From Robertmurraya dakarensis (GTDB taxonomy: Bacteria; Bacillota; Bacilli; Bacillales; Cytobacillaceae), in assembly GCF_900156875.1 (NCBI RefSeq), contig NZ_LT707408.1, positions 1,630,187 to 1,672,590 of the forward strand: a stretch of 42,404 nucleotides of DNA, in the 5' to 3' direction. Each line of letters begins with the position of its first letter. Position 1 is the first letter of the stretch. Below are positions 396-16,687 of this stretch, in pieces. A program made the translations under genes and the position numbers. Below the pieces are notes generated by a model. That model made no database searches. It had not been told where the DNA came from and worked only from the letters and a program-made list of their open reading frames with translations.

Positions 396-1271
396 TTGAG
401 ACACTACGTATCTACTAGTGAAGAGGGAATCAATCGGGAGTCACTGCCGTTTAAACTATACGAAAAGGCAAAAAAGTTTGGAACTTGGGATCCAAGAAAT
501 ATTGATTTTAGCAAGGATAAAGCTGATTGGGAGTCATTAACGAAGGAACAGCAAACATCTTTGCTGACGTTAATTTCTTTTTTTTATAGTGCTGAAGAAG
601 CGGTAACAAATGATATTCTTCCAATGATTTATGCCATTTCAAAAACAGGACATTTTGAAGAAGAAATGTACTTAACGACATTCTTATTCGAAGAAGCGAA
701 GCATGCAGACTTTTTCAGTTTAGTGCTGCAAACGATTGGAGTGAGACGCGAGTTAAATTCTTTACATACTCCAGCCTATCGAAAACTATTTGATGAGCTT
801 CTTCCTGAAACGATGGGCCGTTTAATGGTGGATCAATCACCTAAAGCTATTGCGGATGCTGCCGTTGTGTATAATATGTTCGCGGAAGGAATACTCGCAG
901 AAAGTGGTTATTGGACTTTCTACGAAAATCTAAAAAACATAAATAAAATGCCTGGGCTGCTGGAAGGGATCACGAACATAAAAAGAGATGAATCAAGGCA
1001 TATCGGATTTGGTACATTCTTGCTGCAACGTTTAATGTCTGAATATTCAGATATATTGGATTACGTTCTGAACAAGCTTCAAGGATTAATGCCGCTTGCA
1101 CTTGAGATCAGTAACTCTACTCGGACTGGGGATGTCAACCCGTTCGGCGTGGCAGTAGCGGATAATCAAGCATTCATGCACAAGCAATTGAATGCAAGAA
1201 TTGAAGTGTTGAAACGAGCAAAAGGAAAGACACTAGAGGACATTTATAAAATGGATGTTGTGTTTGAATAA
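396..1271 (+). CDS. R2-like ligand-binding oxidase (R2lox), copy 1
   Basis: 291 aa, TTG start behind AAGGAGGG. Ferritin-like four-helix protein of the R2lox group, which builds a Mn/Fe cofactor, activates O2 and binds a long-chain fatty-acid-like ligand; the physiological reaction is unknown. All expected metal ligands are visible: E67, E100, H103, E164, E199 and H202. V70 and Y159 match the Val-Tyr pair that forms the ether cross-link in the Geobacillus kaustophilus enzyme. First gene of the operon and the one behind the FadR-like and cre sites; an aldehyde dehydrogenase follows after 27 bases. It differs from copies 2 and 3 near the metal site (A69, N72, Y79, H86) and in its C-terminal 60 residues, so its substrate may differ. 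Not the RNR R2 subunit: shorter, and no R1 gene nearby. Confidence 0.9.
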   Translation: MRHYVSTSEEGINRESLPFKLYEKAKKFGTWDPRNIDFSKDKADWESLTKEQQTSLLTLISFFYSAEEAVTNDILPMIYAISKTGHFEEEMYLTTFLFEEAKHADFFSLVLQTIGVRRELNSLHTPAYRKLFDELLPETMGRLMVDQSPKAIADAAVVYNMFAEGILAESGYWTFYENLKNINKMPGLLEGITNIKRDESRHIGFGTFLLQRLMSEYSDILDYVLNKLQGLMPLALEISNSTRTGDVNPFGVAVADNQAFMHKQLNARIEVLKRAKGKTLEDIYKMDVVFE

Positions 1272-1298
1272 TTTTTAGAATAATAGGAGGTGCTCTGT

Positions 1299-2816
1299 GT
1301 GAGTACAGAAACAATGGTCCAACAATTTCCCCTTTTTATTAATGGAAAGTGGACACCAGTTGAGAGTGGTGAAACTTTCGATATTATCAATCCGGCCACA
1401 TCCGAGGTATCAGCTAAAGTATCGAAAGCCTCTGAAAAAGAGGTAGAGCTCGCTGTCCAGAATGCACGCAGTACATTTGAATCAGGTGTTTGGTCGAATA
1501 AAACACCGGAAGAAAGAGCACAAGTTCTCATGCAATTTTCGAAAAAAATTATTGAACATGCTCAGGAAATCGTCTATCTAGAAGCGATAAGTTCAGGAGG
1601 AACCCTTCGAAAGTTAGCTGGAGCTGATATCCAGCAGCTTGTACTATGCTTACAGCAAACGGTTAAGCAAGCTCTTGAGTACAAATATGTTGAAACATTG
1701 CCTGTCGTAACAGCCTTAGGTCCAAGCCGAAATCAGCTAATTCGTGAACCATTAGGAGTAGTGGCTGCAATTACGCCATGGAATTTCCCATTGGTATTAG
1801 CTATGTGGAAAATTGCTCCGGCGTTAATGATGGGTAACTCGATTATTGTAAAACCGGCTTCTAACACACCGCTTGGAACATTGAAATTGGCGGAGTTAGC
1901 GGTTGAAGCAGGTCTGCCGCCAGGGGTGTTTAATGTCATTACTGGCCCAGGTTCAACCGTTGGTGAGGCACTTGTAACTCATAAAGAAGTGGATAAAGTG
2001 GCATTTACCGGTTCGACTGAAGTTGGACGCAGCATTATGAAACAAGCTTCGGGAACGGTAAAGAAAGTAACACTAGAATTGGGTGGAAAAGCACCTGCAA
2101 TCGTTCTGCCGGATGCTGATTTGGAGGTAACGATCCCGGGAATTCTATTTGGTGTTTTCTTCCATTCGGGTCAAGTGTGTGAATCCGGCACGCGGCTGCT
2201 AGTACATGATTCTATCTATGAGGAAGTCATCGCTAAGTTAGCGGAAATGACGAAAAAAATAAAAGTTGGAAATCCAATGGATCTTGCAACTGGAATGGGA
2301 CCGGTTGTTTCCAAACAGCAGATGGATACGATTCTTTCTTATATTGAATCTGGAATTTCTGAAGGAGCAAGACTGGTTTGCGGCGGCAAAAGAGCAGCTG
2401 GACCGGGATTGGATCAAGGATATTATATTGAACCAACCATCTTTGCAGACGTTCAAAATGATATGAAAATTGCTCAAGAGGAAATCTTTGGGCCTGTTCT
2501 ATCTGTGATTCGATACTCTACAGAGGAAGAGGCGATTAGAATTGCTAACGATACGATCTATGGTCTTTCTGCAGGGATCTGGTCTCGTGATGTAGTAAAA
2601 GCTAACAAACTAGCAGCTAAGATTAAAGCCGGAACCATCTGGATTAATGATTGGCATATGTTCAGAATGGATGCACCATTTGGGGGCTATAAGCAAAGTG
2701 GAGTGGGACGTGAATTAGGAAGGAACGCATTAGATGAATACACGGAAGTTAAACATGTTCATACAGCACTAACAAATGAAAATGATCAAAGAGCAGGATT
2801 GAAACTCATATTCTAA
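1299..2816 (+). CDS. Aldehyde dehydrogenase (NAD(P)-dependent)
   Basis: About 505 aa from a GTG start at 1299, chosen because AGGAGG at 1285-1290 lies 8 bases upstream; an in-frame GTG at 1290 overlaps that ribosome site. ALDH superfamily, oxidising an aldehyde to the acid. Visible motifs: PWNFP (N162) for oxyanion stabilisation, K185 in the cofactor site, FTGSTEVG, the general base E260 in ELGGK, and the nucleophile C294 in GQVCESG. Full length for the family. Sits between an R2lox and an alcohol dehydrogenase, so it probably completes alcohol-aldehyde-acid oxidation of the R2lox product. Substrate cannot be read from sequence. In M. tuberculosis the R2lox gene Rv0233 also neighbours an aldehyde dehydrogenase gene (gabD1), as I recall. 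Confidence 0.9.
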   Translation: MSTETMVQQFPLFINGKWTPVESGETFDIINPATSEVSAKVSKASEKEVELAVQNARSTFESGVWSNKTPEERAQVLMQFSKKIIEHAQEIVYLEAISSGGTLRKLAGADIQQLVLCLQQTVKQALEYKYVETLPVVTALGPSRNQLIREPLGVVAAITPWNFPLVLAMWKIAPALMMGNSIIVKPASNTPLGTLKLAELAVEAGLPPGVFNVITGPGSTVGEALVTHKEVDKVAFTGSTEVGRSIMKQASGTVKKVTLELGGKAPAIVLPDADLEVTIPGILFGVFFHSGQVCESGTRLLVHDSIYEEVIAKLAEMTKKIKVGNPMDLATGMGPVVSKQQMDTILSYIESGISEGARLVCGGKRAAGPGLDQGYYIEPTIFADVQNDMKIAQEEIFGPVLSVIRYSTEEEAIRIANDTIYGLSAGIWSRDVVKANKLAAKIKAGTIWINDWHMFRMDAPFGGYKQSGVGRELGRNALDEYTEVKHVHTALTNENDQRAGLKLIF

Positions 2817-2845
2817 GAAAATAAAAAAAACAAGAAGGTGAAAAT

Positions 2846-4051
2846 ATGAAAATTACATCATACTCCGAGTTTTCTCATCGTACTTCATTGCGAATGGGTT
2901 CGGGTACACGAATTTTAGTTCCAGATTTAATCGAAGGATTAGGAGGAAAACGGCCTGTTCTTTTTTCTGATAGAGGGTTAACACAGGCAGGCTTGACGCA
3001 GGAAATTATCGATATTTTCGAAGCGGTACCGGGGATTCAGCTTGCAGGTGTGTTTGATGATATTGAGCAAGATGCGAAAACGTCTAATATAAATAGGGCG
3101 ATTCAATATTTTAAAGAATGTAACGGTGATTCCATTATTGCTATTGGCGGGGGAAGCGTATTGGATACTGCCAAAGGAATCAAGTGGGGAATTCATAATA
3201 AAGTAAGCAATATGGCGCTTGCCATGTCAGGGAATGTGATGGAGTTATGGCCAAAAGCAGAACCTATACAGATCCCGCACGTAGCGATTGCGACTACTGC
3301 AGGAACAGGTGCAGAAGTTTCGGCAATTGCTGTTATCTATAATGAAATGCTTGGCGTGAAATGTAATCTATTAAATCCATACATTAATGCTGATATTGCC
3401 GTGCTGGATCCTGATTTAACAGTAGGATTGCCGCCGAAAGTGACGGCATTTACAGGAATGGATGCCTTAACACATGCGATCGAAGGTTATTTTACATCAA
3501 AAGCAAATCCAATGACAGATGCGTTAGCCCTGCATGCGATGAAATTAATCGTCAACAATTTAAAAACAGCTGTCATTCAAGGAGATAATCTTGCCGCACG
3601 TTCGAATATGCTGCAAGCTAGTACACTGGCAATCAATAGTTTTACTTTAACGTTTGGAGAAGATCCTGTTCACAATGTTGCACATACATTAGGAGCCAAG
3701 TATGGAATACCGCATGGTTTGGCGAATGCCGTTCTGCTTCCAACTGTGATGAGAAATCTAGCTCCGTTATATTTTAAAAAGGTCCATGAATTTGCGTTTG
3801 CTATCGGGGTGAGGGAACCGTCCAATAATCCGGAAGATTGCTTAGCTCAGTGTCTAGAGGTTATTTATGAGTTAAGAAAAGAAATTGGTCTGCCGGATGA
3901 TTTCGCAGAATACAATATTGATCCTGCTGATATACCAAAGTTGATTCCTGCTGTACAAATGGATCCGTCTGGTATTGGATTTAGAATTCCGGAAGATGTA
4001 ATTGAGAAGATTTTAAAGGAAGTTATTCCTGCGAGTGTGTTGGCTGAATAA
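2846..4051 (+). CDS. Iron-containing (group III) alcohol dehydrogenase
   Basis: 401 aa, ATG behind AGAAGGTG. Fe-ADH family: N-terminal Rossmann-like domain with GGGSVLDTAKG (101-111) for NAD(P), then an all-helical domain with metal ligands D206, H210, H276 and H290, and H280 at the usual catalytic histidine position. Converts alcohols to aldehydes or ketones, or the reverse. Starts 29 bases after the aldehyde dehydrogenase stop and is co-directional, so probably the same transcript. Substrate unknown; the neighbourhood suggests a medium- or long-chain alcohol made by R2lox. Confidence 0.88.
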   Translation: MKITSYSEFSHRTSLRMGSGTRILVPDLIEGLGGKRPVLFSDRGLTQAGLTQEIIDIFEAVPGIQLAGVFDDIEQDAKTSNINRAIQYFKECNGDSIIAIGGGSVLDTAKGIKWGIHNKVSNMALAMSGNVMELWPKAEPIQIPHVAIATTAGTGAEVSAIAVIYNEMLGVKCNLLNPYINADIAVLDPDLTVGLPPKVTAFTGMDALTHAIEGYFTSKANPMTDALALHAMKLIVNNLKTAVIQGDNLAARSNMLQASTLAINSFTLTFGEDPVHNVAHTLGAKYGIPHGLANAVLLPTVMRNLAPLYFKKVHEFAFAIGVREPSNNPEDCLAQCLEVIYELRKEIGLPDDFAEYNIDPADIPKLIPAVQMDPSGIGFRIPEDVIEKILKEVIPASVLAE

Positions 4052-4128
4052 AAGGTTTTTGTTTGACATAGATTTTGAAAGATTAATAGATTTGCACCTG
4101 CATTTTTTTGGAAGTGCTACCCAGTTGC

Positions 4129-4156
4129 TATTATCAATGATTGGTAACTGTTACAC
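4129..4156. promoter_or_regulatory. Imperfect dyad in the gap before the frameshifted gene
   Basis: CAGTTGC and GTAACTG form an imperfect inverted repeat around an AT-rich centre, in the 144-base gap after the alcohol dehydrogenase. A TTGACA sequence at 4063-4068 could be a -35 box, but no convincing -10 follows at 16-18 bases. Could be an operator or a weak internal promoter region. Confidence 0.2.
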
Positions 4157-4195
4157 AAGAAAAGTTATTTTAAAACAAAGAAGGAGGAATTTTTA

Positions 4196-5301
4196 ATGAT
4201 AACAAAAGGCGACGATTTTCCAATTCATCAAACGCCAGAACCAATTGCATTTTCAGGGACGGATCGAAACTTTTATGACCGTTATTTTTTCAATGGCTAT
4301 ACAAAAGAAGGCGATGTGTACTTCACAACAGCGTTTGGCGTGTATCCTCACCTAAATATCATTGATGCTTCTTTCTGTGTGGTCCATAAGGGTGTACAGC
4401 ATAATCTCCATGCTTCAGGGTATTTGAATATGGAACGCCTAAACACACAGGTTGGACCCATAAAAGTTGATGTAGTAGAACCTTTAGAAGTATTGAAGAT
4501 CAGTGTAAATGATAATGAGCATGGAATACGTGCCGAAGTTACGTTCAATGCACGTACGGTTCCAATTAAAGAGCCTCGTTTTACAAAGCGAAATGGACCG
4601 CGTGCATTTATGGACTATACTCGTTTTACGCAAAATGGAACATGGGATGGATGGATTGATGTTCAAGGTGAAAGAATTACATTGAACCGCGAAGACTATC
4701 TTGGTATGCGTGATCGTTCATGGGGAATACGTCCAATTGGGGAAAAAGATCCTCAGCCGATGGTACCGCCAATGGAGCCGCAGTTTTATTGGCTTTGGGC
4801 ACCTCTGAACTTTGGGGATAGGATCACTCTATACCATGATAATGAAGATGGTGCGGGCTATCCATGGAATCAAGCTGCTGTCATGTGCGGGCTTCATGGG
4901 GCTGAACCAGAAAGAATGGAAAAGTGCTGGTCTGAAATTACTTATAGATCTGGTTCAAGGCATGCCGAAAGTGCAAAGCTCTTTCTAGAAAATAAAAAGG
5001 TGAAATTACGACCATTGATTTAACTGTTAAGTGGCAATATTACATGACGGGAATGGGCTACAATAACCCTGATTGGAATCATGGAACAAATAAAGGTGAA
5101 CTGGCGGTTGGTTATGACAAAATTGTTACGGAAGAAATTACGACTTCAGAAGCTCCTTATCATCACATTCAAGCGTTTGTGACTGCAGTGATGACGCTGC
5201 CGAACGGTGAAACATTTGATGGAGTAGGAATCTTAGAACAAGCGATCATTGGTCCACATGAACCATCTGGTTTTAAAACGAATTTGGATGTGGCGCCGTG
5301 A
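4196..5301 (+). pseudogene. Conserved catabolic-cluster protein, split by a -1 frameshift
   Basis: Good ribosome site (AAGGAGGA) and ATG at 4196. The first frame runs 275 codons to 5023; the matching downstream frame continues to 5301. Adding one A to the A5 run at 4994-4998 joins them smoothly (…LFLENKKGEITTIDLTVKW…, then …MTGMGYNNPDWNHG…), giving a protein of about 368 aa. Rich in beta-strand-like, Trp/Tyr segments and without signal peptide. It resembles proteins (DUF7064/DUF7065-like, distantly CrtC/AttH-like) that accompany ACAD10-type kinases in mycobacterial and sphingomonad degradation clusters; this is from memory and not certain. The tail ends in a TGATG overlap with the kinase gene, so the reading frame was recently intact. 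Mutation, sequencing error or recoding are all possible. Confidence 0.7.
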
Positions 5302-6338
5302 TGAAAGAAATCAGTAAACAATTAGCTGCTTATCTTGAACATAGGATGCCGGGGATTACAAATGTAGAAATAACTGAACTTTCTCGTATACATGGGGGAG
5401 CAAGCCGTGAAACCTACAGCTTAACTGCGAGGTGGAGGGATGGAGGAAAAGCGGTGGAGAGGCCATTAATCCTTCGACGCGATCCGGTTGGAAGTTTAAT
5501 TGAAACTGATCGTGAAGTTGAGTATAATGCTTATTCTGCTTTTTATCCTCTAGGATTGCCTGTACCTGAACCACTTTATATAGAGAATGATCCTAAGTGG
5601 CTGGGACGTCCGTTTTTTGTAATGGAAAGAATTGTGAACTCTAACGTAAGTTCGTACCTGGTACCTCCTGATTCATCTATTATTGATCAAGTTGGCAGAC
5701 AGTTTTGGAGTGAGCTTGGCCGGATTGCAGGAGCCGATCCTGCTGAAATTGGTTTAGCAGATAAACTGGAAAAAGTTGAACCGGAAAATTGTTGGAAGCG
5801 GGAACTTACGTATTGGGAGAATGTCATTAATGAAGATCAACTGCACTCAGAACCAATTGCACGTGCTGCCATTCGCTGGCTGAAGAAAAATCCGCCACCG
5901 CCGCCTCCGAGACTTTCAGTTGTTCATGGTGATTATCGAACAGGTAATTTTCTTTATAATGACGCAGGAGACGTGACTGCCATTCTGGACTGGGAATTAT
6001 GCCATCTAGGAGATCCTCATGAAGATATTGCCTGGGCAGCTGATCCATTTTGGTCATTCGAAAGTACAGAAAGGCCAAGTGGTATGATACCACGAGAAGA
6101 AGCATTCCGGCAGTGGGAAGAAACAAGTGGATTCACGATAGACCCAGCTGCGCTTAGATGGTGGGAGATTTTTTCGATGGTAAAAGGGCTTGCGATATGG
6201 ATATCAGCCGGCAATGAATTTCAGCAAGGCACAAATAAAGATATTGTCCTTGCGTGGTCTGGCTTTTTCCCGAGACTCGTCCATAATCGTTTGTTAGCAG
6301 AACGGTTATCAACGCTCTCAAGGGAGGTACTGCTATGA
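5301..6338 (+). CDS. ACAD10/LvaA-type phosphotransferase (APH-fold kinase)
   Basis: 345 aa from ATG at 5301, overlapping the previous stop as TGATG (a GTG one codon earlier is possible). APH/choline-kinase fold: GGASRET loop at 32-38, Brenner motif HGDYRTGN with catalytic D211 and N216, and Mg-binding D230 in ILDWELCHLGDP. Family knowledge: relatives are the kinase domain of ACAD10/ACAD11 and Pseudomonas putida LvaA, which phosphorylate the 4-hydroxyl of 4-hydroxyacyl-CoA so that an acyl-CoA dehydrogenase-type enzyme can remove it. Genuine aminoglycoside resistance is unlikely given the neighbours. The next gene overlaps by ATGA, as expected for a two-protein kinase complex. Confidence 0.82.
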   Translation: MKEISKQLAAYLEHRMPGITNVEITELSRIHGGASRETYSLTARWRDGGKAVERPLILRRDPVGSLIETDREVEYNAYSAFYPLGLPVPEPLYIENDPKWLGRPFFVMERIVNSNVSSYLVPPDSSIIDQVGRQFWSELGRIAGADPAEIGLADKLEKVEPENCWKRELTYWENVINEDQLHSEPIARAAIRWLKKNPPPPPPRLSVVHGDYRTGNFLYNDAGDVTAILDWELCHLGDPHEDIAWAADPFWSFESTERPSGMIPREEAFRQWEETSGFTIDPAALRWWEIFSMVKGLAIWISAGNEFQQGTNKDIVLAWSGFFPRLVHNRLLAERLSTLSREVLL

Positions 6339-6805
6339 AGCCGAGTATGAATGAAATGTTAGAGAGTATCTGCGAAACATTACTGAAGGACATTGCTCCA
6401 AGTCAACAGTCGGATTACCAGACGAAACAATTGAATACGATGGCTTTTCTTATTTTAAATGCAGCGAAAGAATATGACCAGGCTGCAGATATTCGTTTTC
6501 AAGAGAATGCTAGAATGAGAAAGATATTCTTGGAAGCTTCTACATTAGTGGAGGATCAAGAGCTGCGTGGAAAAGTAGAAGCAGCAGCTAAGTCTAAGGA
6601 TACATCCCTAAGCATTAAGGCTTTAGATGCTGCAAATGATGAATTGAACGAGCTTCTCATTGAACTCCAGACATATGTAGAAGAAGTTGAAACACCTTTG
6701 GGGGCAGATCTATTGCAGTCAATTTGGAGCTATTTCGTGGACTCGACTGCAAGAAGAAGAGAGGTATGCCCAGGAATTGTGGTGGACTTGAAGCCTAGCA
6801 ATTAA
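6335..6805 (+). CDS. Small LvaB/DUF6285-like partner of the kinase
   Basis: 156 aa, ATG overlapping the kinase stop (ATGA), preceded by GGGAGG. Soluble, mostly helical, with no signal peptide or membrane segment. Position and length fit the DUF6285-type proteins usually encoded beside APH-fold kinases. In P. putida the small protein LvaB is needed for full LvaA kinase activity. I infer the same role from translational coupling rather than from a recognised motif. The middle (residues about 30-75) shows the helical LNTMAFLILNAAKEY…NARMRKIF pattern I associate with DUF6285. Confidence 0.55.
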   Translation: MKPSMNEMLESICETLLKDIAPSQQSDYQTKQLNTMAFLILNAAKEYDQAADIRFQENARMRKIFLEASTLVEDQELRGKVEAAAKSKDTSLSIKALDAANDELNELLIELQTYVEEVETPLGADLLQSIWSYFVDSTARRREVCPGIVVDLKPSN

Positions 6806-6816
6806 TAAATGAGATG

Positions 6817-6845
6817 TTGATATGGTCATCATTAGGTTTTGTATT
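6817..6845 (+). promoter_or_regulatory. Weak candidate promoter before R2lox copy 2
   Basis: TTGATA (6817-6822), 17 bases, then TGTATT (6840-6845). The -10 matches only 4 of 6. It could give copies 2 and 3 separate expression, or they may be read from the upstream promoter, since no terminator lies in this 76-base gap. Confidence 0.25.
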
Positions 6846-6881
6846 TTTTGAATATTAAATATATTTTATGGGGGTTTTTGG

Positions 6882-7763
6882 ATGAGACAGTTAGCGTCAC
6901 ATAGTGAAAAAGGAATCAACCGTAATTCCTTGCCATTTAAATTGTATGAAAAAGCGAAAAAATTCGGTACTTGGGATCCAAGAGATATTGATTTTTCACA
7001 GGATAAGGAAGATTGGGAGAGTTTGACTTATGCCCAGAGAGAAGAATTAATGCAGTTAATTTCTCAATTCTACGGAGCAGAGGAATCGGTTACAATTGAT
7101 ATTTTGCCAATGATATCAGCTATTTCGAAGGTTGGTTATTTTGAGGAAGAAATGTATTTAACGACCTTTGTTTTTGAAGAAGCGAAGCATGCTGACTTTT
7201 TCTCGTTATTTCTTGAAAATATAGGCGTAAAAGGAGAACTTGGCCATATCCCAATCCCTGCATGGCATAAATTATTCCATCAAATCCTTCCAGAAACGAT
7301 GGATCGTCTCAACCATGATCAGTCACCACATGCATTGATAGACGCAGCTGTAACTTACAATATGTTTGCGGAAGGTGTTATGGCTGAAACTGGATATTAT
7401 TATTTTTACGAATGTTTAAAATCTATCAATAAAATGCCAGGGCTATTAGAAGGGATTGGCAATATTAAAAGAGATGAATCCCGTCATATCGGATTTGGTA
7501 CCTTCTTGATTCAGCGGCTCATCAGTGAAGATCCAAGCCTTTATGATTATGCGATCGAGAAGTTAAACCATTTAATGGGCACCATTCGTGTGGAATTTGG
7601 TGAGCAGAGGAAGTTCGGTGCCTTTGATCCGACGATTGACGAGAGATTAACACAATTCGGCAATAAACAATATCAAGCGAGAGTGGATGTTCTTGCTAGA
7701 GCTAAAAATCGAAAGTTTGAAGAGATTTATAACTTATCAGAAAAAGAGGTTGGCGTTGAATAG
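6882..7763 (+). CDS. R2-like ligand-binding oxidase (R2lox), copy 2
   Basis: 293 aa, ATG about 7 bases after a GGGGG ribosome site. Metal ligands E67, E100, H103, E164, E199 and H202 and the cross-link pair V70/Y159 are all present at the same numbering as copy 1. It aligns without gaps to copy 3 (next gene) and much less closely to copy 1, especially after residue 220. So a copy-1-type gene and a copy-2/3-type gene diverged first, and copies 2 and 3 arose by later tandem duplication. Expected to be a soluble Mn/Fe oxidase binding a fatty-acid-like ligand; the reaction is unknown. Co-directional with the kinase pair, 76 bases downstream of it. Confidence 0.9.
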   Translation: MRQLASHSEKGINRNSLPFKLYEKAKKFGTWDPRDIDFSQDKEDWESLTYAQREELMQLISQFYGAEESVTIDILPMISAISKVGYFEEEMYLTTFVFEEAKHADFFSLFLENIGVKGELGHIPIPAWHKLFHQILPETMDRLNHDQSPHALIDAAVTYNMFAEGVMAETGYYYFYECLKSINKMPGLLEGIGNIKRDESRHIGFGTFLIQRLISEDPSLYDYAIEKLNHLMGTIRVEFGEQRKFGAFDPTIDERLTQFGNKQYQARVDVLARAKNRKFEEIYNLSEKEVGVE

Positions 7764-7817
7764 ATTATCAGTAAGTTAGTTGAAGTGTATTAATGGAAAA
7801 AATAGGAGGAATAGAAA

Positions 7818-8699
7818 ATGAGAAAATTAGCGTCACATAGTGAGAGAGGAATTAATCGGAATTCTTTGCCATTTAAACTTTATGAAAAGGCGAAAAAATT
7901 TGGAACTTGGGACCCAAGAGATATTGATTTTTCAAAAGATAAAGCAGATTGGCAGTCGTTAACGGAAATACAAAGAAATGAATTATTGCTGCAAGTTTCT
8001 CAATTTTATGGGGCGGAGGAATCGGTTACGATTGATATTATGCCAATGATTTCGGCTATTTCAAAAGTCGGTTACTTTGAAGAAGAAATGTATTTGACGA
8101 CGTTTGTTTTTGAAGAAGCAAAGCATACGGACTTCTTTAATTTATTTTTACACCATATCGGAGAAAATCGCGATTTAAGTCATCTTCCGGTACCTGCTTG
8201 GAGAAGATTATTCCATGAGGTGCTGCCGGAAACGATGGAAAAACTAAACTATGATCAATCACCGAAGGCATTGATTGACGCTTCTGTCACTTACAATATG
8301 TTTGCAGAAGGGGTATTGGCGGAAACAGGCTATTTCTATTTTTATGAGTGCTTAAAGTCCATCAATAAAATGCCAGGCCTGCTAGAAGGGATTGGCAATA
8401 TTAAAAGGGATGAATCTCGACATATAGGATTTGGAACTTTCCTAATTCAAAGATTGATCAGTGAAGATCCAAGTTTATATGATTATGCTGTTGAAAAAAT
8501 GAACTATTTAATGGGAACGATTCGTGCACAGTTTGCTCAAGAGATGGTGTATCAAGGGTTTGATCCAGCAATTAAAGAGAAATTAGCTAAATTTGCTGCT
8601 ACGCAATACCAAGCACGTATGGAAGTACTGGCAAGAGCAAAGAATAAGAAGTTTGATGAAATTTATAATTTATCTGAAACGGAGATTGGCGTTTATTAA
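7818..8699 (+). CDS. R2-like ligand-binding oxidase (R2lox), copy 3
   Basis: 293 aa, ATG behind AGGAGGA with good spacing. Same eight key residues as copies 1 and 2 (E67, V70, E100, H103, Y159, E164, E199, H202). Begins 54 bases after copy 2 and ends just before a strong terminator, so copies 2 and 3 probably share a transcript. Differences from copy 2 cluster on surface segments (residues 110-140 and 230-255), while the metal-site helices are nearly unchanged. That suggests a young tandem duplicate kept for dosage, heterodimer formation or a slightly different ligand. Copy 3 has T104 where copies 1 and 2 have A104, right beside ligand H103. Confidence 0.9.
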   Translation: MRKLASHSERGINRNSLPFKLYEKAKKFGTWDPRDIDFSKDKADWQSLTEIQRNELLLQVSQFYGAEESVTIDIMPMISAISKVGYFEEEMYLTTFVFEEAKHTDFFNLFLHHIGENRDLSHLPVPAWRRLFHEVLPETMEKLNYDQSPKALIDASVTYNMFAEGVLAETGYFYFYECLKSINKMPGLLEGIGNIKRDESRHIGFGTFLIQRLISEDPSLYDYAVEKMNYLMGTIRAQFAQEMVYQGFDPAIKEKLAKFAATQYQARMEVLARAKNKKFDEIYNLSETEIGVY

Positions 8700-9679: not shown

Positions 9680-10459
9680 TTAATACCAACGGCTTAAATC
9701 AGGGTATCCACTTACTGCCCAAGCACCGTCAACGAGGAGACTGGCTCCTGATACATAGGCAGCGTCATCGCTTGCTAGAAATAAAGCTGGTCCCGTCATA
9801 TCATCCGGCTGTGCAGCTCTTCCAAGCGGGATACGTTCTAAATAAGCATCTTTAATCTCTTTATTTTCCACCAGAGGAGCCGTTAATGGAGATTCGACTA
9901 ATCCAGGCAAAAGGGCGTTTACTCTAATATTTTCACGAGCTAGTTCAAGCGCAGCATTTTTTGTCAACATCTCAACACCAGCTTTTGCGGAAGAATACGC
10001 CGCGCCGGCATACATCGGTACATGTGCGTTTAGTGAAGCGACATTGACAATAGCACCGGCGCCCTGTTTCTTCATCTGTCTAGCCTGATGTTTAATGCAG
10101 AGAAAAACTCCTTTTAAACAAAGGTCAACAGTGAAATTCCAATCCGTTTCGGAGAGCTCTACAATCTGCCCAGGTCTTGAAGCTCCTGCAACATTAAAGG
10201 AATAGTTCAGTCCGCCAAATTGTTCAACTGTTAATTCTACGAGCTTCTCTACTTGATCTTCTTTCGTCACATCGATTTCCAAGCCTAAAAAATTGGAACC
10301 AAGCTCTTTTTGCATGTTCTCTAGACTGTCCTTGTTTAGGTCAGCAGCCACTACTTTGGCTCCTTCTTTAATGAGGCGTTGTACAATAGCGTAGCCAATT
10401 CCTGAGGCCCCACCTGTAACAATGGCTATTTTATTATTAAAGCGACCTGCATTTGTCAT
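9680..10459 (-). CDS. Short-chain dehydrogenase/reductase (SDR)
   Basis: 259 aa, ATG behind GGGAGGAAT. Classical SDR: TGGASGIG cofactor loop near residue 15, D60-V pair, NVAGAS, catalytic Ser in VNVASLNAH, and YSSAK (Y and K catalytic) near residue 155. Interconverts a hydroxyl and a keto group using NAD(P)H. In the P. putida levulinate pathway an SDR (LvaD) interconverts 4-keto- and 4-hydroxyacyl-CoA, and a similar job would fit the kinase and synthetase nearby; this is inference. Opposite strand, own promoter region with a 16-bp palindrome. It ends at the shared terminator. Confidence 0.85.
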   Translation of the reverse strand: MTNAGRFNNKIAIVTGGASGIGYAIVQRLIKEGAKVVAADLNKDSLENMQKELGSNFLGLEIDVTKEDQVEKLVELTVEQFGGLNYSFNVAGASRPGQIVELSETDWNFTVDLCLKGVFLCIKHQARQMKKQGAGAIVNVASLNAHVPMYAGAAYSSAKAGVEMLTKNAALELARENIRVNALLPGLVESPLTAPLVENKEIKDAYLERIPLGRAAQPDDMTGPALFLASDDAAYVSGASLLVDGAWAVSGYPDLSRWY

Positions 10460-10502
10460 AAGTTTGATTCCTCCCGGGTTTATGAATAATATGTATATAC
10501 TA

Positions 10503-10518
10503 TTCTAAATATTTAGAA
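10503..10518. promoter_or_regulatory. 16-bp perfect palindrome in the SDR promoter region
   Basis: TTCTAAATATTTAGAA is a perfect palindrome about 45 bases upstream of the SDR start, inside a very AT-rich stretch that must hold its promoter. Probable repressor or activator site; the protein is not identifiable from the site alone. Confidence 0.4.
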
Positions 10519-10608
10519 AATATATATTCTATCATAGCATAAAAAATATTTTTAATAAAGAAGGGAGAGGCTGTGTATTTTCTATTGGGATTGAAGGATG
10601 AATTGAAG

Positions 10609-10640
10609 TAAAAAGCAGCCGAAAATAGTTTTCAGCTGCT
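10609..10640 (-). terminator. Terminator of the molybdopterin oxidoreductase gene
   Basis: On the minus strand AGCAGC…GAAAA pairs with TTTTC…GCTGCT and is followed by TTTTTAC, just after the stop of the gene starting at 12705. Confidence 0.7.
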
Positions 10641-10665
10641 GGAAAGTTTTCTAGTAAACGAGGGT

Positions 10666-12705
10666 TTATTCTTTTGCTATTTTCTCAACATTTACCCGTC
10701 CAGAAAAGAATGTAGCTCCACCGCCCATATCAGCAATTCGATCCGGTGTGAGGGAATTGACTAAATATTTCTTTTCGGAAACATCAGCCCAAAGGCCTTG
10801 TGTTACGACAACTCCGGAAAGTACATTTTCACCGACTGCTGCTTTCAATTCGCACTGGCCCCGGTTGTTCCAAATTAAGACAGTCTCTCCATCCTCTACA
10901 CCCAGTTTTTCTGCATCTTTTGAATTGATATGCAAACGGGGTTCTTTTTCAAGCGAGAGATGTTTGTCATTATTAGAAAATGTTGAGTTTAAGAAATTAT
11001 GATTTGGCGCTGGTACGAAATGAAACTTAAATTGGTCTTCCTCGACTAATGGTGTATATGTAGGAAGAGGAGGAAGGCCTTTTATTTTCAATTGCTCAGA
11101 ATAAAGCTCAATTTTACCGCTTGGAGTTAACAGCTTTTTCGTCAACGGCGGTGATACATTAGCCTTTACGTACTGTTCTTTTTCTAGTCTTTCATAATCA
11201 ATGCCTTTAAGGTAAGGAGTATGCAGTGCGTCAGAAATCATTTGCCTTTCTGTTTCGTATAGAGCCTCATCTTCATAGCCCATTGCTTTAGAAAGCAGCT
11301 GGAAAACCTCAAAATTTGATTTTGATTCACCATATTTTTCAATAACAGGTTGTTGAAGTTGGACGTAATGATGCCAGTACGATTTATAAAAATCTGTGTT
11401 CTCCAAAGAGCTTGTAGCTGGTAAAACGATATCCGCATACTTTGCTGTTTCCGTCAAAAATAAATCATGAACCACGATAAAAAGGTCATCCCGTGCTAAC
11501 CCTTTTCTCACTTTATTGCTCGATGGAGCTACAACTGCTGGATTTGACCCGTACACAAATAGCGATTTAACAGGCGGATCTGCTTCAAGGAGTGCTTTTC
11601 CAAGTAAGTTCATGTTAATTATACGAGTGTTTTTATTCTTTAATAAATCAGGGCGCTGCAGTTTATTTGCATCGTGAGTCAAATGTTGACCATTGCCTTT
11701 GATCGCTCCGCCGCCTTGCAGCAGCCATTGACCAGTCAGGGCAGGAAGACAGGAAATGCTTCTCACAATCATGCCGCCATTATCATGATGCTGAGGGCCA
11801 TTTCCAATGCGAATAAAGGAAGGAGATGTTTCGCCGTACATCCTTGCAAGCTTATAGATATCTTCTACTGGTATTCCGGTAATGGCTGAAACCGATGCAG
11901 GGTCGAACTGTTTTACATGTTCACGCAATTCCTCGTGTCCAACAGTATACTTCTCAAGAAAATCGTTATCTGTCATATTTTCAGCGAATAAAATTTGCAT
12001 CATGCCAAGTGCTAGAGCAGTGTCGGTTCCAGGCAATATCGGGATAAACCAGTCTGCCATTCGACCTGTTTGATTTTTATGGACATCAATTACGACGATT
12101 TTAGCTCCATTCTTTCTTGCCTTTTGAGCAAGTACCACTTGATGCATATTCGTGCTTACAGCATTAATGCCCCAAAGAATGATCAATTTAGAATGAATGG
12201 TCTCCTCTGGATCTATACCAAAGCTGCCGCCCATTGTATATTGATAACCTTTTGAACCAGCGGATGAACAAATCGTTCGATCAAGTAAGGATGCACCCAT
12301 GCGATGGAAGAAGCGGCGGTCCATTCCTTCTGCATTCAGATAGCCCATATTGCCGTAAAAACTATATGGAAGAATGCTTTCCGGCCCATCTGTTTGGATA
12401 AGACTTTTCCATTTCTTTGCAATAGTTTCTATAGCTTCTTCCCAGCTGATTTGTTCGAATCTACCTTCACCTTTTGGGCCTACTCGTTTTAGGGGATATT
12501 GGAGACGTTCATGATCATAGATACGATGCGTCATGTTTCGTACCTTGTTACAGATATTTCCTTGTGTGACAGGATGGTTAGGATCACCCTCTATTTTTAT
12601 TATTTTTCCATTTTCTTTATGAACAAGCAGGCCGCATTGATCCGGACAATCCAAAGAACAGACCGATGGGAAAATCCCTGTTGGTTGATCGGCAAAAGAA
12701 TTCAC
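10666..12705 (-). CDS. Molybdopterin-dependent oxidoreductase, YoaE-like
   Basis: 679 aa, start ATG behind AAAGGAGGTC. DMSO-reductase superfamily: an N-terminal [4Fe-4S] motif C16, C20, C24 and C52, followed by the molybdopterin-guanine-dinucleotide domains and a C-terminal dinucleotide-binding lobe (about 560-679). No twin-arginine signal, so it is cytoplasmic. Length and N-terminal motif match B. subtilis YoaE, a probable oxidoreductase of unknown substrate. It sits between the SDR and the acyl-CoA synthetase, divergent from the latter. It could add a hydroxyl or oxidise an aldehyde in the pathway, but no electron-transfer partner gene is adjacent, so the role stays open. Confidence 0.85.
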   Translation of the reverse strand: MNSFADQPTGIFPSVCSLDCPDQCGLLVHKENGKIIKIEGDPNHPVTQGNICNKVRNMTHRIYDHERLQYPLKRVGPKGEGRFEQISWEEAIETIAKKWKSLIQTDGPESILPYSFYGNMGYLNAEGMDRRFFHRMGASLLDRTICSSAGSKGYQYTMGGSFGIDPEETIHSKLIILWGINAVSTNMHQVVLAQKARKNGAKIVVIDVHKNQTGRMADWFIPILPGTDTALALGMMQILFAENMTDNDFLEKYTVGHEELREHVKQFDPASVSAITGIPVEDIYKLARMYGETSPSFIRIGNGPQHHDNGGMIVRSISCLPALTGQWLLQGGGAIKGNGQHLTHDANKLQRPDLLKNKNTRIINMNLLGKALLEADPPVKSLFVYGSNPAVVAPSSNKVRKGLARDDLFIVVHDLFLTETAKYADIVLPATSSLENTDFYKSYWHHYVQLQQPVIEKYGESKSNFEVFQLLSKAMGYEDEALYETERQMISDALHTPYLKGIDYERLEKEQYVKANVSPPLTKKLLTPSGKIELYSEQLKIKGLPPLPTYTPLVEEDQFKFHFVPAPNHNFLNSTFSNNDKHLSLEKEPRLHINSKDAEKLGVEDGETVLIWNNRGQCELKAAVGENVLSGVVVTQGLWADVSEKKYLVNSLTPDRIADMGGGATFFSGRVNVEKIAKE

Positions 12706-12834
12706 ATTTTGACCTCCTTTTTAGAATTTAAGTGATTAATAAGATCATAAAGTAATATATGAATGGATTCAAACAATCTAGACAGAAAATTAATAAAATA
12801 GCAGTCCTATATTTTCTTAATATTCAAAAAGTAA

Positions 12835-12864
12835 TTGTGTGTATACATATTAAAGTATTAAAAT
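12835..12864 (+). promoter_or_regulatory. Candidate promoter of the acyl-CoA synthetase operon
   Basis: TTGTGT (12835-12840) and TAAAAT (12859-12864), 18 bases apart. An 8-bp inverted repeat AAATAAAT/ATTTATTT (12861-12868 and 12893-12900) and a 10-bp palindrome TAGACGTCTA lie just downstream and could be operator sequences. Confidence 0.3.
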
Positions 12865-12903
12865 AAATAGAGATAGAGTAAATAGACGTCTAATTTATTT
12901 GAA

Positions 12904-12918
12904 TTGAAAGCGTTGTCA
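12904..12918. promoter_or_regulatory. cre-like site (CcpA)
   Basis: TTGAAAGCGTTGTCA fits WTGNAARCGNWWWCA with one mismatch (G at position 12). It lies 36 bases before the start of the acyl-CoA synthetase and downstream of its candidate promoter, so it should repress the operon when preferred sugars are present. Confidence 0.55.
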
Positions 12919-12953
12919 CTTCAAGGATCTAGTAAATGAAGAGGAGGTTCGTT

Positions 12954-14456
12954 ATGTTAATTGGGGAAATGTTACAAAAACAAGCAGTTGAACATCCTCA
13001 TCGTCCTTTTATTAAAATTGGGGAGGCTACCTACACATTTCGAGAGTTTAATAGATTGGTAAATCAAACGGCTGCCTGGTTATTAAGAGATTATGACATT
13101 AAAAAGGGCGCCCATATAAGCATCATTCTTCCTAATCAGATTGATTTTCTTTTGTTGTTTTTTGCGATTGCGAGGGCAGGGGGAGTGGTTGTCCCGATGA
13201 ATCCGCATTTCAAAGCAGATTTATTATCGTATATGGTTGGGCAAAGTGAAAGTTCTCTTGTGATATGCCATCGAGATGTGGAGATGTTTGAAACATCGGA
13301 ATCTGTAAAGAAAATCGTCATTGATAATGGAGAGATTGTTGACCTTGTAAGACATATTCAAGATGCTGATCTTCTCCCAACCGATGTGAATCAAGATGAT
13401 CTTTTTAGTATTATCTATACTTCTGGAACGACAAGCAGGCCGAAAGGGGTTATGAATACGCAGAGTGCCTATTTAGCGGCGGGAAGAGATATCTCCAGTG
13501 CCTTGAATATTTCAAAGGACGATGTTACCTACTTATTTTTACCTCTGTTTCATGCGAATCCACAGTTTTATGGAATCATGTCTGCATTAATTGCAGGAAA
13601 CACTCTCCTAATTGATGAGAGGTTTTCCGCGAGCGAGTTTTGGAAGAAAGCACAACAACAAGAATTCACTACTTTTACATATGTTGGAACCGTTCTTTCT
13701 ATCCTGTTAAAAACAATGCCGTTTCAAGCTCCCCTTCAACATCAGATTAAAGGGGTTGGCGGTGGGGCACCGAAAGAGACGTGGGAACAGTTAACTGCAA
13801 AATGTGGACTAAAAATACATGAACTATACGGTATGTCGGAAACAGGAGGCTTTGTTACGATCAATTCCGTCAGCAAATACAAAATGGGAAGTGTCGGTAT
13901 AACTAGAGATTGTGTACAAGTAGCCATTTTAAATGAACAAGATGAAGTTTGTGGCGCAAATGTAAAAGGGGAGATCGCTATTCGTCCAAACCAGCCAAAT
14001 GTGATATTCGATGGCTATTATAATGAACCTGGAAAAACAGTCGAAGTATTTTCAAATCTTTGGTTCCATACGGGTGATATAGGCTGGTTTGATCAAGAGG
14101 GTTTCTTCTATTTTGAAGGCAGAAAGAAAGATATTATTCGAAAAAAAGGAGAAAACATTTCGCCGACTTATATAGAGGAAGTTTTTCAAAAATTGGACGT
14201 AGTGAAAGAGGCTGCTGCGGTTGGGATTTCTGATGAAATAGCCGGGGAAGAAATTAAGCTATGCTTGGTTATGGAAGAAAAGGAATTTTCTATAGAGAAA
14301 TTGGTCCAATGGGGAAAAGAACATTTACCTGAGATCATGATGCCAAGGTATTTTGAAAGAATGGATGCTTTTCCAAAAACAGCTACAGAGAAAATTGAAA
14401 AACACAAACTGAAGGTTTTAGAAGATCAGGTGATCGATATCAAGCAATCTAACTAA
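12954..14456 (+). CDS. Acyl-CoA synthetase (AMP-forming, class I adenylating)
   Basis: 500 aa from ATG at 12954, with GAGGAGG 6 bases upstream (the ATG at 12936 precedes that site). ANL superfamily: P-loop YTSGTTSRPKG at 155-165, YGMSETGG, HTGDIGW, the hinge near GRKKDIIRKKGENISP, and the adenylation Lys at about 480 in KTATEKIEK. It makes acyl-AMP then acyl-CoA from a free acid, probably the acid left by the aldehyde dehydrogenase of region A. LvaE plays this role in levulinate catabolism. First gene of a three-gene operon with acyl-CoA dehydrogenase and a DUF6282-like protein. The acid specificity is unknown. Confidence 0.88.
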   Translation: MLIGEMLQKQAVEHPHRPFIKIGEATYTFREFNRLVNQTAAWLLRDYDIKKGAHISIILPNQIDFLLLFFAIARAGGVVVPMNPHFKADLLSYMVGQSESSLVICHRDVEMFETSESVKKIVIDNGEIVDLVRHIQDADLLPTDVNQDDLFSIIYTSGTTSRPKGVMNTQSAYLAAGRDISSALNISKDDVTYLFLPLFHANPQFYGIMSALIAGNTLLIDERFSASEFWKKAQQQEFTTFTYVGTVLSILLKTMPFQAPLQHQIKGVGGGAPKETWEQLTAKCGLKIHELYGMSETGGFVTINSVSKYKMGSVGITRDCVQVAILNEQDEVCGANVKGEIAIRPNQPNVIFDGYYNEPGKTVEVFSNLWFHTGDIGWFDQEGFFYFEGRKKDIIRKKGENISPTYIEEVFQKLDVVKEAAAVGISDEIAGEEIKLCLVMEEKEFSIEKLVQWGKEHLPEIMMPRYFERMDAFPKTATEKIEKHKLKVLEDQVIDIKQSN

Positions 14457-14477
14457 TTACATGAGAGGATGAGTCCA

Positions 14478-15629
14478 TTGTATTTATCGGAGAGTCAGAT
14501 GGAATTTAGAGATGAATTAAGAGAATTTGTTCAAGATTATATTTCCCCGACGGCCGATCAGCGAGACAAGGATGATGTCTATCCCACAGACATCATTAAG
14601 AAGATGGCAGAACGAGGCTATAATTCCTGGACATTGCCTGAAAAATATGGAGGTCAGAATGGTTCAAAACTTGAAGCTTGTCTTATTTTTGAAGAAGTCG
14701 CTAGAGGATGTGCGTCAACGGGGATTTCACTGATTACGATTTTTCAGGCTCAAACCATTCTCCATTTATATGGTACTGATACTTTGAAAGATAAGGTGTT
14801 AAAAGAGTTTAAGAATGGGTTGATTGCGTCCTATGCGTTAACAGAATCAAAACGAGGTTCAGATATTCGCAGTTTGGACACGAAAGCAGTAAAAAAAGGT
14901 GATAAATGGGTAATTAATGGCGCAAAGTCTTTTATTACAAGTGCTTCAGCTGCGGATGTATTTATTATCCTAGCGGAAACGGATGTTGGCGTCACTACGT
15001 TCTTCGTTGAAAAAGATCTCCCAGGCGTTAGAACAGTGGTAGGTGATTATTCACAAACGATAGGTCTTCGAAATGGTCCGCACTACGATGTCTATCTCGA
15101 AAATGTAGAAATTCCCGAATATTGTTTAATTGGAGTGGAGGGGAAAGGAATCAAACAAGCGGTGACAACATTGAATAATAGCCGGACATTGGCCGCAGCG
15201 ATCAGTGTTGGGATTGCACGGGCTGCTTATGAGGATAGTCTTGCTTGGGTCATGAAACGGCAGGCATTTGATCAAGATGTGTTTGATTTTCAAGGGATTC
15301 AGTGGATGTATGCCAATATGCTGACAGATATAAATGCGGCGAGATTGTTGACCCATCAAGCAGCTACCCTTCATGACCAAGGGGATGCGGCGATCTCTGA
15401 ATCAAGTCAGGCTAAGCTGTTTGCTGGTGAAACGGCCACCCGGGTTGCTGGTCAAGCCATTCAGGCATGCGGAGCATATGGAACAACGGTTAATGCACCA
15501 TTTGGCCGTTATTTACGGGATGCAAAAGCCTATGAAATTGCTGGAGGAAGCAATGAAATTCTTAAGAATACGATTGGAAAAGAAATAAGAAAAAATTGGG
15601 CAAAACATACTCCGGCTATAAAGAATTAG
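14478..15629 (+). CDS. Acyl-CoA dehydrogenase (FAD)
   Basis: 383 aa from TTG at 14478, chosen since AGAGG at 14464-14468 is 9 bases upstream. The ATG at 14469 directly abuts that site and would add three residues. Typical ACAD: N-terminal helical domain, the flavin-binding motif YALTESKRGSDI near residue 120, and the C-terminal YEIAGGSNEI, whose Glu is at the catalytic base position. Makes trans-2-enoyl-CoA, or in ACAD10/11- and LvaC-type members takes part in removing a 4-phosphate group. Sits 22 bases after the synthetase. Electron transfer would need ETF, not present in this window. Confidence 0.88.
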   Translation: MYLSESQMEFRDELREFVQDYISPTADQRDKDDVYPTDIIKKMAERGYNSWTLPEKYGGQNGSKLEACLIFEEVARGCASTGISLITIFQAQTILHLYGTDTLKDKVLKEFKNGLIASYALTESKRGSDIRSLDTKAVKKGDKWVINGAKSFITSASAADVFIILAETDVGVTTFFVEKDLPGVRTVVGDYSQTIGLRNGPHYDVYLENVEIPEYCLIGVEGKGIKQAVTTLNNSRTLAAAISVGIARAAYEDSLAWVMKRQAFDQDVFDFQGIQWMYANMLTDINAARLLTHQAATLHDQGDAAISESSQAKLFAGETATRVAGQAIQACGAYGTTVNAPFGRYLRDAKAYEIAGGSNEILKNTIGKEIRKNWAKHTPAIKN

Positions 15630-15705
15630 ATTCTCACATTAAATGGACGGACAGTTGACTTATTTCTCTTCGATAATTCGGTGTTATGGAGAATCTAGCT
15701 GTCCG
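15627..15705 (+). other. Interleaved inverted repeats (possible RNA pseudoknot)
   Basis: TAGATTCTC (15627-15635) pairs with GAGAATCTA (15689-15697), and CGGACAG (15648-15654) pairs with CTGTCCG (15699-15705). The order A-B-A'-B' cannot form a simple nested hairpin and has pseudoknot topology. It fills the gap between the acyl-CoA dehydrogenase stop and the ribosome site of the next gene. Confidence 0.4.
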
Positions 15706-15730
15706 CAATTCTTTCATAAAGGTGGTCCCT

Positions 15731-16687
15731 ATGAAAAATAATTTTCACCCTCTCTTAGAGGGAGCTTATGAATTTCATGTTCACAGTTATCCTAGCATTT
15801 TCAGTCGCAAGCAAAGAGATTGGGAGCTCCTTGAAGACGCGAAAAAGGCAAAAATGGGTGGTTTTGTTTTAAAAAGTCATGAATCATCCACGGTTGAACG
15901 TGCTTACCTGTTAAGAGAAAAGGAGCCTTCCGTGAATGTATTTGGCGGAATTGTTTTAAATCAGCATGTTGGTGGACTTAACCCGTATGTAGTTGAAGCC
16001 TCTTTGATAATGGGCGGCAAGGTTGTATGGTTTCCAACGATTTCTGCTCGTCAGCACCAGGATTATTTTAAAAATAAAGCTACACAGTTATTTAATGGAA
16101 GTCCGCTGTTATCTCAGTCTGTTGTTTCAATTGAGAAAGAGGGTCGTCTACTTCCTGAGGTGGAAGAAATCCTCAGATTAATTAAAGAATATGATGCTGT
16201 TTTAGCGACAGGACACTTGTCTTTAAAGGAACAGCATGCGGTTGTTGAGGCTGCGAAAAAAGCAGGTGTTGAAAAAATTGTTATTCAGCATGCAGATATG
16301 GGAATTTCTAAAATCCCGCTTAGTGATCAACAGTTTTTTGCTTCACAGGGCTGCATGATCGAAAAGTGTTTATTGGCATGCAGCAATGATTTTCAAGATT
16401 TAACCATTGAGGATATGAAGAGGACGATTGACACCATAGGTTTTGAGTCCTGTATTCTAGTCACCGATTTTGGCCAGCCTCACAACGAAGCACCTGTTTA
16501 TGGTTTAAATACATTCGTGGAGAAACTGCTGTTAGAAGGAATGAAGGAGAACCAAGTGACAAGGATGTTACAGGTTAATCCAAAAAGCTTATTAGGGTTA
16601 CGTTCGTCAAGGTGGTTATTAAATCCCAGTCATTTATCCTTACTAAAAAAGGAAAGCCCTTCTATAGTTAGTAGAAGGGTGAAGTGA
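15731..16687 (+). CDS. DUF6282-like metal-dependent hydrolase (amidohydrolase fold)
   Basis: 318 aa from ATG at 15731, with AAAGGTGG 5 bases upstream; an ATG at 15686 lacks a ribosome site and lies in the structured gap. Candidate metal ligands in TIM-barrel order: FHVHSYP (HxH), SHES, ATGHLS, IQHAD and ILVTDFGQ (Asp). This matches the DUF6282/PHP-like amidohydrolase pattern. Probably hydrolyses a lactone, amide or ester in the pathway; the exact reaction is unknown. Third gene of the synthetase operon. Mycobacterial R2lox loci also carry a metal hydrolase (php) nearby, as I recall. Its last codons contain the terminator of the opposite gene. Confidence 0.65.
   Translation: MKNNFHPLLEGAYEFHVHSYPSIFSRKQRDWELLEDAKKAKMGGFVLKSHESSTVERAYLLREKEPSVNVFGGIVLNQHVGGLNPYVVEASLIMGGKVVWFPTISARQHQDYFKNKATQLFNGSPLLSQSVVSIEKEGRLLPEVEEILRLIKEYDAVLATGHLSLKEQHAVVEAAKKAGVEKIVIQHADMGISKIPLSDQQFFASQGCMIEKCLLACSNDFQDLTIEDMKRTIDTIGFESCILVTDFGQPHNEAPVYGLNTFVEKLLLEGMKENQVTRMLQVNPKSLLGLRSSRWLLNPSHLSLLKKESPSIVSRRVK
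16651..16679 (-). terminator. Minus-strand terminator inside the end of the facing gene
   Basis: CCCTTCTA (16657-16664) and TAGAAGGG (16672-16679) form an 8-bp stem. Read on the minus strand it is followed by a T-rich stretch ending in TTTTTT, so it likely ends the small membrane protein transcript. Confidence 0.5.

Follow-up and report, generated by a model that had tools for sequence, protein, structure and literature searches.

A candidate lipid-chain oxidation locus of Robertmurraya dakarensis that combines three R2lox genes with a kinase-lyase cassette

Positions 396-8699 of a 42,404-nucleotide stretch of Robertmurraya dakarensis DNA (NCBI RefSeq assembly GCF_900156875.1, contig NZ_LT707408.1, positions 1,630,187 to 1,672,590; the whole stretch is hereafter called the window) hold a locus of eight genes, all on one strand and within the first 8.7 kb. 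Three of them encode R2lox proteins (R2-like ligand-binding oxidases), an Mn/Fe enzyme family for which many structures are solved and whose function is in dispute. Our analysis suggests that the locus may be an O2-dependent lipid-chain oxidation cluster, in which R2lox hydroxylates the chain and a three-gene cassette handles a hindered hydroxyl, a reading to which we give a probability of about 45%. What appears to be new, as judged from sequence, is the presence within an R2lox locus of this cassette, composed of a 25-phosphosteroid lyase (25-PSL) family gene, a kinase gene, and a gene for a small protein. The gene order is R2lox1, aldehyde dehydrogenase (ALDH), iron-type alcohol dehydrogenase (ADH), lyase-family gene (two frames), APH-type kinase, small protein, R2lox2, and R2lox3:

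396..1271, + strand: R2lox1, R2-like ligand-binding oxidase, 291 aa, TTG start 3' of an AGGAGG stretch (NF006200, 249.2 bits)
1290..2816, + strand: aldehyde dehydrogenase, 508 aa (PF00171, E 4.3e-181)
2846..4051, + strand: iron-type alcohol dehydrogenase, 401 aa (PF25137 and PF00465)
4196..5023, + strand: 25-phosphosteroid-lyase (Rv3169) family gene, first and main piece, its end cut by a frameshift (NF053593, E 9.5e-100, model positions 2-268 of 351)
4987..5301, + strand: C-terminal piece of the lyase in a different frame (NF053593 positions 265-351 at 4987-5250)
5298..6338, + strand: APH-fold small-molecule kinase, 346 aa (PF01636, E 5.7e-32)
6335..6805, + strand: small helical protein, 156 aa, third gene of the cassette (without Pfam or NCBIfam family)
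6882..7763, + strand: R2lox2, 293 aa (NF006200, 265.5 bits)
7818..8699, + strand: R2lox3, 293 aa (NF006200, 266.1 bits)

Gaps of 18, 29, and 144 bases separate R2lox1 from ALDH, ALDH from ADH, and ADH from the lyase gene. The final stop of the lyase runs into the start of the kinase gene, which in turn shares 4 bases with the small gene; gaps of 76 and 54 bases precede R2lox2 and R2lox3, respectively.

All three R2lox proteins exceed the 194-bit cut-off of the NCBIfam R2lox model NF006200; with the four further R2lox models that were listed, their scores do not reach the cut-off. The active-site residues E69, V72, E102, H105, Y162, E167, E202, and H205 (numbering of GkR2loxI from Geobacillus kaustophilus) are present in R2lox1, R2lox2, and R2lox3, and these eight positions are intact in 40 of 41 aligned R2lox rows, the lone exception being a truncated row. 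Model scores and alignment agree with an earlier note on this DNA, which had described three R2lox genes, each with six metal ligands and the Val-Tyr pair, and family profile matches confirm the ALDH, iron ADH, and APH-family kinase genes that it had placed among them. The lyase-family gene and the small-protein gene do not appear in that note. We also considered R2lox1-3 as ribonucleotide reductase subunits and rejected this assignment. The genome (about 5.48 Mb, 11 contigs) has four PF00268 matches, on contigs C10 and C11, and all of them are R2lox genes, the fourth lying outside the locus (contig C11, 1000647-1001525); a role in ribonucleotide reduction is therefore unlikely from genomic context. 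The only large-subunit reductase frame, of 968 aa, lies elsewhere, on contig C11, which suggests that a B12-dependent (class II) enzyme is presumably the sole ribonucleotide reductase.

R2lox1, ALDH, and iron ADH form a core module that is common to relatives. In a survey of 193 genomes of the family, 88 R2lox matches (E <= 1e-30) were found in 75 genomes. A relative of the window ADH (E <= 1e-95) lies downstream of 66 of these matches, spread over 63 of the 75 R2lox genomes; conversely, 64 of the 89 ADH relatives, which occur in 79 genomes, have R2lox upstream within 6 kb. The linkage that the earlier note had expected is hence present in related genomes. Fisher's test on it gives p 3e-28; as the test takes no account of how the genomes are related, we do not count this value as evidence. 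The remaining 25 ADH genes are not so placed, 13 genomes carry the ADH without R2lox, and nine R2lox genomes are without such an ADH, two of them from the genus of the window and four, with R2lox 69-84% identical to R2lox1, from a single other genus. Gene order was then compared across 48 R2lox loci from other genomes (28 from a first search and 20 chosen by hand from the family survey). ALDH and iron ADH follow downstream on the same strand in 29 of them, and an AMP ligase lies just upstream in 24. All 29 tandem ALDH-ADH pairs in these loci come directly after R2lox, and no such pair occurs in 80 other loci (1.40 Mb, mostly proteobacterial); this contrast is partly built in, because the 48 loci are centred on R2lox, whereas the family-wide ADH search is independent of it. 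In two of the loci (L041 and L042), the ALDH that follows R2lox shares 84% and 83% identity with the window ALDH. The pathway proposed in the earlier note, oxygenation followed by alcohol-aldehyde-acid oxidation, fits the conserved order of 66 of 88 matches and 29 of 29 pairs; the 19 of 48 loci that are without the full module are exceptions to it.

R2lox genes on plasmids give a more varied picture. Among 52 plasmid records with a match, five loci outside this group were read: ADH is a neighbour in three, ALDH in one, and ferredoxin plus reductase in two, while the two haloarchaeal loci have none of these four beside R2lox. On two Rhodococcus plasmids, R2lox lies beside a ferredoxin, an NAD(P)/FAD oxidoreductase, and an ADH, and the set-up is therefore of monooxygenase type. 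These neighbours argue against the view that R2lox is not a hydroxylase at all, acting instead as a desaturase, a bound-alcohol oxidase, or the operon's sensor of oxygen or metal. The same view is at odds with an ADH partner that is constant in most of the family, as well as with the alkane loss reported for GkR2loxI lysate in the accessible part of that study (PMC10867098). It draws on the R2lox loci without ADH and ALDH, and on the reaction described in the available portion of another paper, which is the protein's own Tyr-Val ether cross-link (PMC6399176). Overall, we regard it as improbable.

The gene between ADH and kinase belongs to the 25-PSL family. Its main open reading frame (4196-5023) scores 334 bits against NF053593 (Rv3169 family; cut-off 150) and matches the solved 25-PSL structure 9fzn over residues 3-222 (phmmer, E 3.5e-47). 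A stretch reading RDRSWG is invariant across 16 lyase rows (R172 nearly so). Family matches are split over two frames, 4202-4999 and 4987-5250; the C-terminal frame has a stop at its near end, and the translation runs to the stop at 5299-5301. From this frameshift it follows that the kinase-lyase couple may be dying or mis-assembled. Conserved C-terminal sequence is kept in the broken gene, which points to a recent break or an assembly error. With the lyase frame broken in the assembled sequence, the dehydration branch may be inactive in this strain.

The kinase finds 9o56, ACAD11, 3ats, and 3dxp as relatives in the PDB, and carries the stretches HGDYRTGN and LDWE, which we take to be catalytic. 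It is of the same broad family as the steroid kinase 25-HSK and matches 9fsg weakly (E 1.5e-4); that this entry is 25-HSK is a guess of ours. Four weaker relatives of the kinase are encoded elsewhere in the genome. The kinase sequence by itself does not separate a 4-hydroxyacyl-CoA from a free tertiary alcohol as substrate, and the neighbouring lyase favours the free tertiary alcohol. Of the label "LvaA-type kinase" used in the earlier note, the APH-type fold stands and the implied role is misleading, since the neighbour is a 25-PSL-family gene and not an LvaC-type acyl-CoA dehydrogenase. An LvaA-like route would have the kinase phosphorylate 4-hydroxyacyl-CoAs made from R2lox-hydroxylated fatty acids, with an acyl-CoA dehydrogenase completing the dehydration. 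A match to the kinase domain of ACAD11 (E 7.4e-16) and the AMP ligase and acyl-CoA dehydrogenase genes at 12936-15629 would suit such a route. Nevertheless, the acyl-CoA dehydrogenase gene (14469-15629) lies 5.8 kb past R2lox3, beyond two opposite-strand genes, and the kinase adjoins a 25-PSL-family lyase here as it does in 57 of 80 lyase loci described below. We consider the LvaA-like route very unlikely.

By its distribution, the cassette appears to be foreign to the family. The lyase family was found in the window's genome only, among 101 relatives, 398 genomes of the phylum, and 193 genomes of the family (sets that overlap). The best 80 of at least 562 lyase relatives, analysed with up to 10 kb per side and on many contigs with less, are titled proteobacteria, apart from one titled just "bacterium"; Parvibaculum, at 65% identity, ranks among the first. 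The kinase lies next to the lyase in 57 of these loci, and kinase and small protein together are found in 46. Four loci titled Parvibaculum have the same order as the window, with identities of 63-65% (lyase), 58-61% (kinase), and 41-43% (small protein). Related arrangements occur on a Variovorax plasmid (lyase, kinase, hypothetical protein), in Rhodococcus USK10, in which the order differs (kinase, small protein, lyase), and on a Rhodococcus oxybenzonivorans plasmid (P450, OB-fold protein, lyase, phosphotransferase, hypothetical protein, ALDH). Because a P450 gene precedes the cassette in the latter and also lies 5' of it in Parvibaculum locus L081, an oxygenase partner for the cassette has precedent. 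The case for transfer is one of distribution only. GC content at third codon positions is 0.33-0.38 and shows no foreign signature in the cassette (the lyase value spans the frameshift).

The small protein shares 23-43% identity with its counterparts across cassettes (33-row alignment), and is modelled as five helices with a pLDDT of 91.5; a PDB fold search gave no match below E 1. Its assignment to DUF6285 was rejected, as there was no Pfam match at E up to 5 (HMMER filters drop most weak matches at this level). Pairwise comparison with the Rhodococcus USK10 counterpart gave E 2e-5, and that with the Variovorax counterpart was unsuccessful; homology of the small proteins is drawn mainly from the 80 loci. 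Our guess is that the protein is a partner of the kinase or the lyase.

Within the proposed cluster, the core module would be joined by the lyase-kinase-small protein cassette and two extra R2lox genes. R2lox would insert oxygen at an unactivated carbon of a hydrophobic, possibly branched, chain, and ADH and ALDH would convert the resulting alcohol to an acid. The kinase would phosphorylate an alcohol that is out of reach for ADH, in the simplest case a tertiary or a hindered secondary one, and the lyase would eliminate the phosphate to leave an alkene, so that the two enzymes together would dehydrate the alcohol at the cost of ATP. This is the chemistry reported for the 25-HSK route, in which tertiary C25 alcohols are phosphorylated and phosphate elimination yields an alkene, as far as the accessible parts of the two papers describe it (PMC8449060, PMC11061730). 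The extra R2lox copies would serve different positions or chain shapes. A narrower version would make the locus an O2-dependent equivalent of the cascade that degrades sterol side chains anaerobically, with R2lox in both places that molybdenum hydroxylases take in Sterolibacterium. One R2lox would then hydroxylate an iso-branched or isoprenoid chain end at its tertiary carbon, the kinase-lyase pair would produce the alkene, another R2lox would hydroxylate the now-allylic methyl group, and iron ADH and ALDH would lead to the acid. Although this version would explain the extra R2lox copies, because two different hydroxylations are needed, we find it rather improbable as a whole.

Several observations weigh against the proposed cluster. 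The lyase is frameshifted in the window, whereas in all 80 relatives the frame is open over 300-420 aa. The association of R2lox with the cassette is seen in a single genome, where the lyase is broken, and could be accidental. Recurrence offers no test of a lyase-R2lox link, because the lyase family occurs in only one of the 193 genomes. R2lox was not found in any of the 80 cassette loci (10 kb or less on each side, with many contigs shorter), and a P450 lies within 4 kb in only eight of them, so a link between cassette and oxygenase is not general; the P450 count comes from three query proteins, and distant P450s and other oxygenases would be missed. A scheme in which the cassette always comes with a P450, replaced here by R2lox, is thus not supported. 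The kinase is closer to ACAD11 and 3ats than to 9fsg. The full ALDH-ADH module is missing from the 19 loci mentioned above; these include four with R2lox1 relatives (69-84% identity, the two closest among them; L162-L165 in genomes G523, G514, G515, and G535) that have no ALDH or ADH nearby. A general rule that every R2lox works with this ADH is accordingly ruled out; in L162 and L164, the scanned neighbours look like unrelated genes. Finally, GkR2loxI, the only R2lox with a reported substrate that we found, lies outside the window clade at 43-46% identity.

In a simpler explanation, only the core module matters: R2lox1-3 would be terminal or subterminal chain hydroxylases working with ADH and ALDH as in Geobacillus, and the cassette would be a decaying passenger. 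In 63 of 75 R2lox genomes, that of the window among them, R2lox is followed by the ADH, and none of the remaining 62 has the lyase family; the frameshift points the same way, as does the published Geobacillus cluster with its alkane loss, so far as that paper could be consulted (PMC10867098). Still, the kinase and small-protein frames are uninterrupted and lie within the series of genes from ADH to R2lox2, and the conserved C-terminal sequence of the broken lyase is what a recent break or an assembly error would leave. We judge the passenger explanation to be rather unlikely, yet the most probable of the alternatives, and retain the cluster joined by the cassette as our preferred reading.

The paralogues seem to differ in origin. 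R2lox2 and R2lox3 are 78.5% identical and form a sister pair (support 100/100), and R2lox1 clusters with R2lox of the related genomes G026 and G019 (99/97), a group that the pair adjoins with weak support (86/71). The tree was built without L065, whose row is cut short, and row L074, in a wrong frame, was left out of the alignment. From this placement, R2lox1 looks like the copy inherited with the module, and R2lox2 and R2lox3 look like products of an older duplicate that duplicated again. The ratio of nonsynonymous to synonymous changes between the latter two is about 0.08 (simple pairwise count, with dS at 1.7 and near saturation), which suggests purifying selection on both. Three R2lox genes in a single locus occur in two of the 75 R2lox-bearing family genomes, the window's and G011, so the arrangement, called unusual in the earlier note, is rare and not unique. 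The G011 locus (L039) reads R2lox-ALDH-ADH followed by two further R2lox, and G050 (L040) has two R2lox side by side. Both loci are accompanied by CoA transferase III and electron-transfer flavoprotein genes, L040 also by TRAP-type solute-binding proteins, hinting at a soluble acid substrate; R2lox substrates therefore probably differ among loci.

Outside the locus, positions 1-80 of the window hold an 80-base element with nine genomic copies, this one included, at 95-100% identity; another of these copies is found 3.6 kb upstream of it, and a stretch reading N separates the two. Positions 9680-16687 hold, on the minus strand, a short-chain dehydrogenase and a molybdopterin oxidoreductase; genes for an AMP ligase, an acyl-CoA dehydrogenase, and a DUF6282 protein come next. 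Positions 17855-19108 encode a bacterial serpin with a lipoprotein-like start (E 2.3e-114).

Taken together, the ADH tie in 63 of 75 R2lox genomes, with ALDH added in 29 of 48 loci, offers a testable pathway beyond the Geobacillus case, and the kinase-lyase cassette is a chemical clue to the kind of hydroxyl involved. The cassette, whose small protein matches no known family, is of interest in itself as an unstudied three-gene set for dehydration that recurs in 46 of the 80 loci, most of them proteobacterial. The idea of an R2lox-ALDH-ADH pathway is not new, because it is already in print for Geobacillus (PMC10867098), the only paper in the open-access literature found for R2lox with alcohol dehydrogenase, aldehyde dehydrogenase, and gene cluster. 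No report joining R2lox and phosphosteroid lyase was found in that literature (most subscription papers lay outside the search).

Among the closest known systems, the GkR2loxI (GK2771) cluster of G. kaustophilus likewise has R2lox beside ALDH and ADH and the same eight active-site residues; it has one R2lox, whereas the window locus has three. GkR2loxI is reported, in the part of the paper available to us, as an alkane monooxygenase whose lysate depletes C10-C22 alkanes (PMC10867098). The earlier note's statement that the natural reaction of R2lox is undetermined is partly out of date in view of this depletion; it keeps some force, as a metal-ligand double mutant was only slightly weaker, losing only part of the activity. 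In our tree, GkR2loxI (a 224-residue piece) groups with L058 and L055 (100/99), apart from the window R2lox genes, which fall in a 30-row group of family and order genomes (83/99). The word "phosphotransferase" does not occur in the main text of the GkR2loxI paper (PMC10867098). GkR2loxII, on plasmid pHTA426, also has an iron ADH and an ALDH in the same orientation, 5.2 and 6.4 kb upstream; it is, however, 29% identical to the window R2lox. In its locus (L008) it lies among UbiD decarboxylase, xanthine-dehydrogenase-type subunit, and AMP-binding ligase genes, which points to an aromatic acid route for this distant protein.

The 25-HSK/25-PSL system of Sterolibacterium denitrificans resembles the window locus in having a kinase, a 25-PSL-family lyase, and ADH or ALDH steps. 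Its hydroxylases are molybdenum enzymes and its pathway needs no oxygen, while in the window R2lox is the candidate hydroxylase. The accessible text places no lyase candidate near the 25-HSK gene (PMC8449060), in contrast to the adjacent kinase and lyase of the window; unlike 25-PSL, the window lyase is broken. In the parts of PMC8449060 and PMC11061730 that we could consult, the lyase is called unknown or putative, and it is the PDB entry 9fzn that names it. The LvaA or ACAD10-11 route shares with the cassette an APH-fold kinase that turns a hydroxyl into a phosphate for elimination, and differs in that elimination is carried out by an acyl-CoA dehydrogenase on CoA esters, as described in the available part of PMC12440821. 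An LvaC-type acyl-CoA dehydrogenase gene beside the kinase was not found in 396-8699; the comparison with LvaA was one of APH-type fold. The same two families as in the cassette also meet in the Rv3168-Rv3169 pair of Mycobacterium tuberculosis: NF053593 is named after Rv3169, and the kinase matches 3ats, which we take to be Rv3168. The two genes are presumably adjacent there as well, and we assume that they may have an oxygenase partner of their own.

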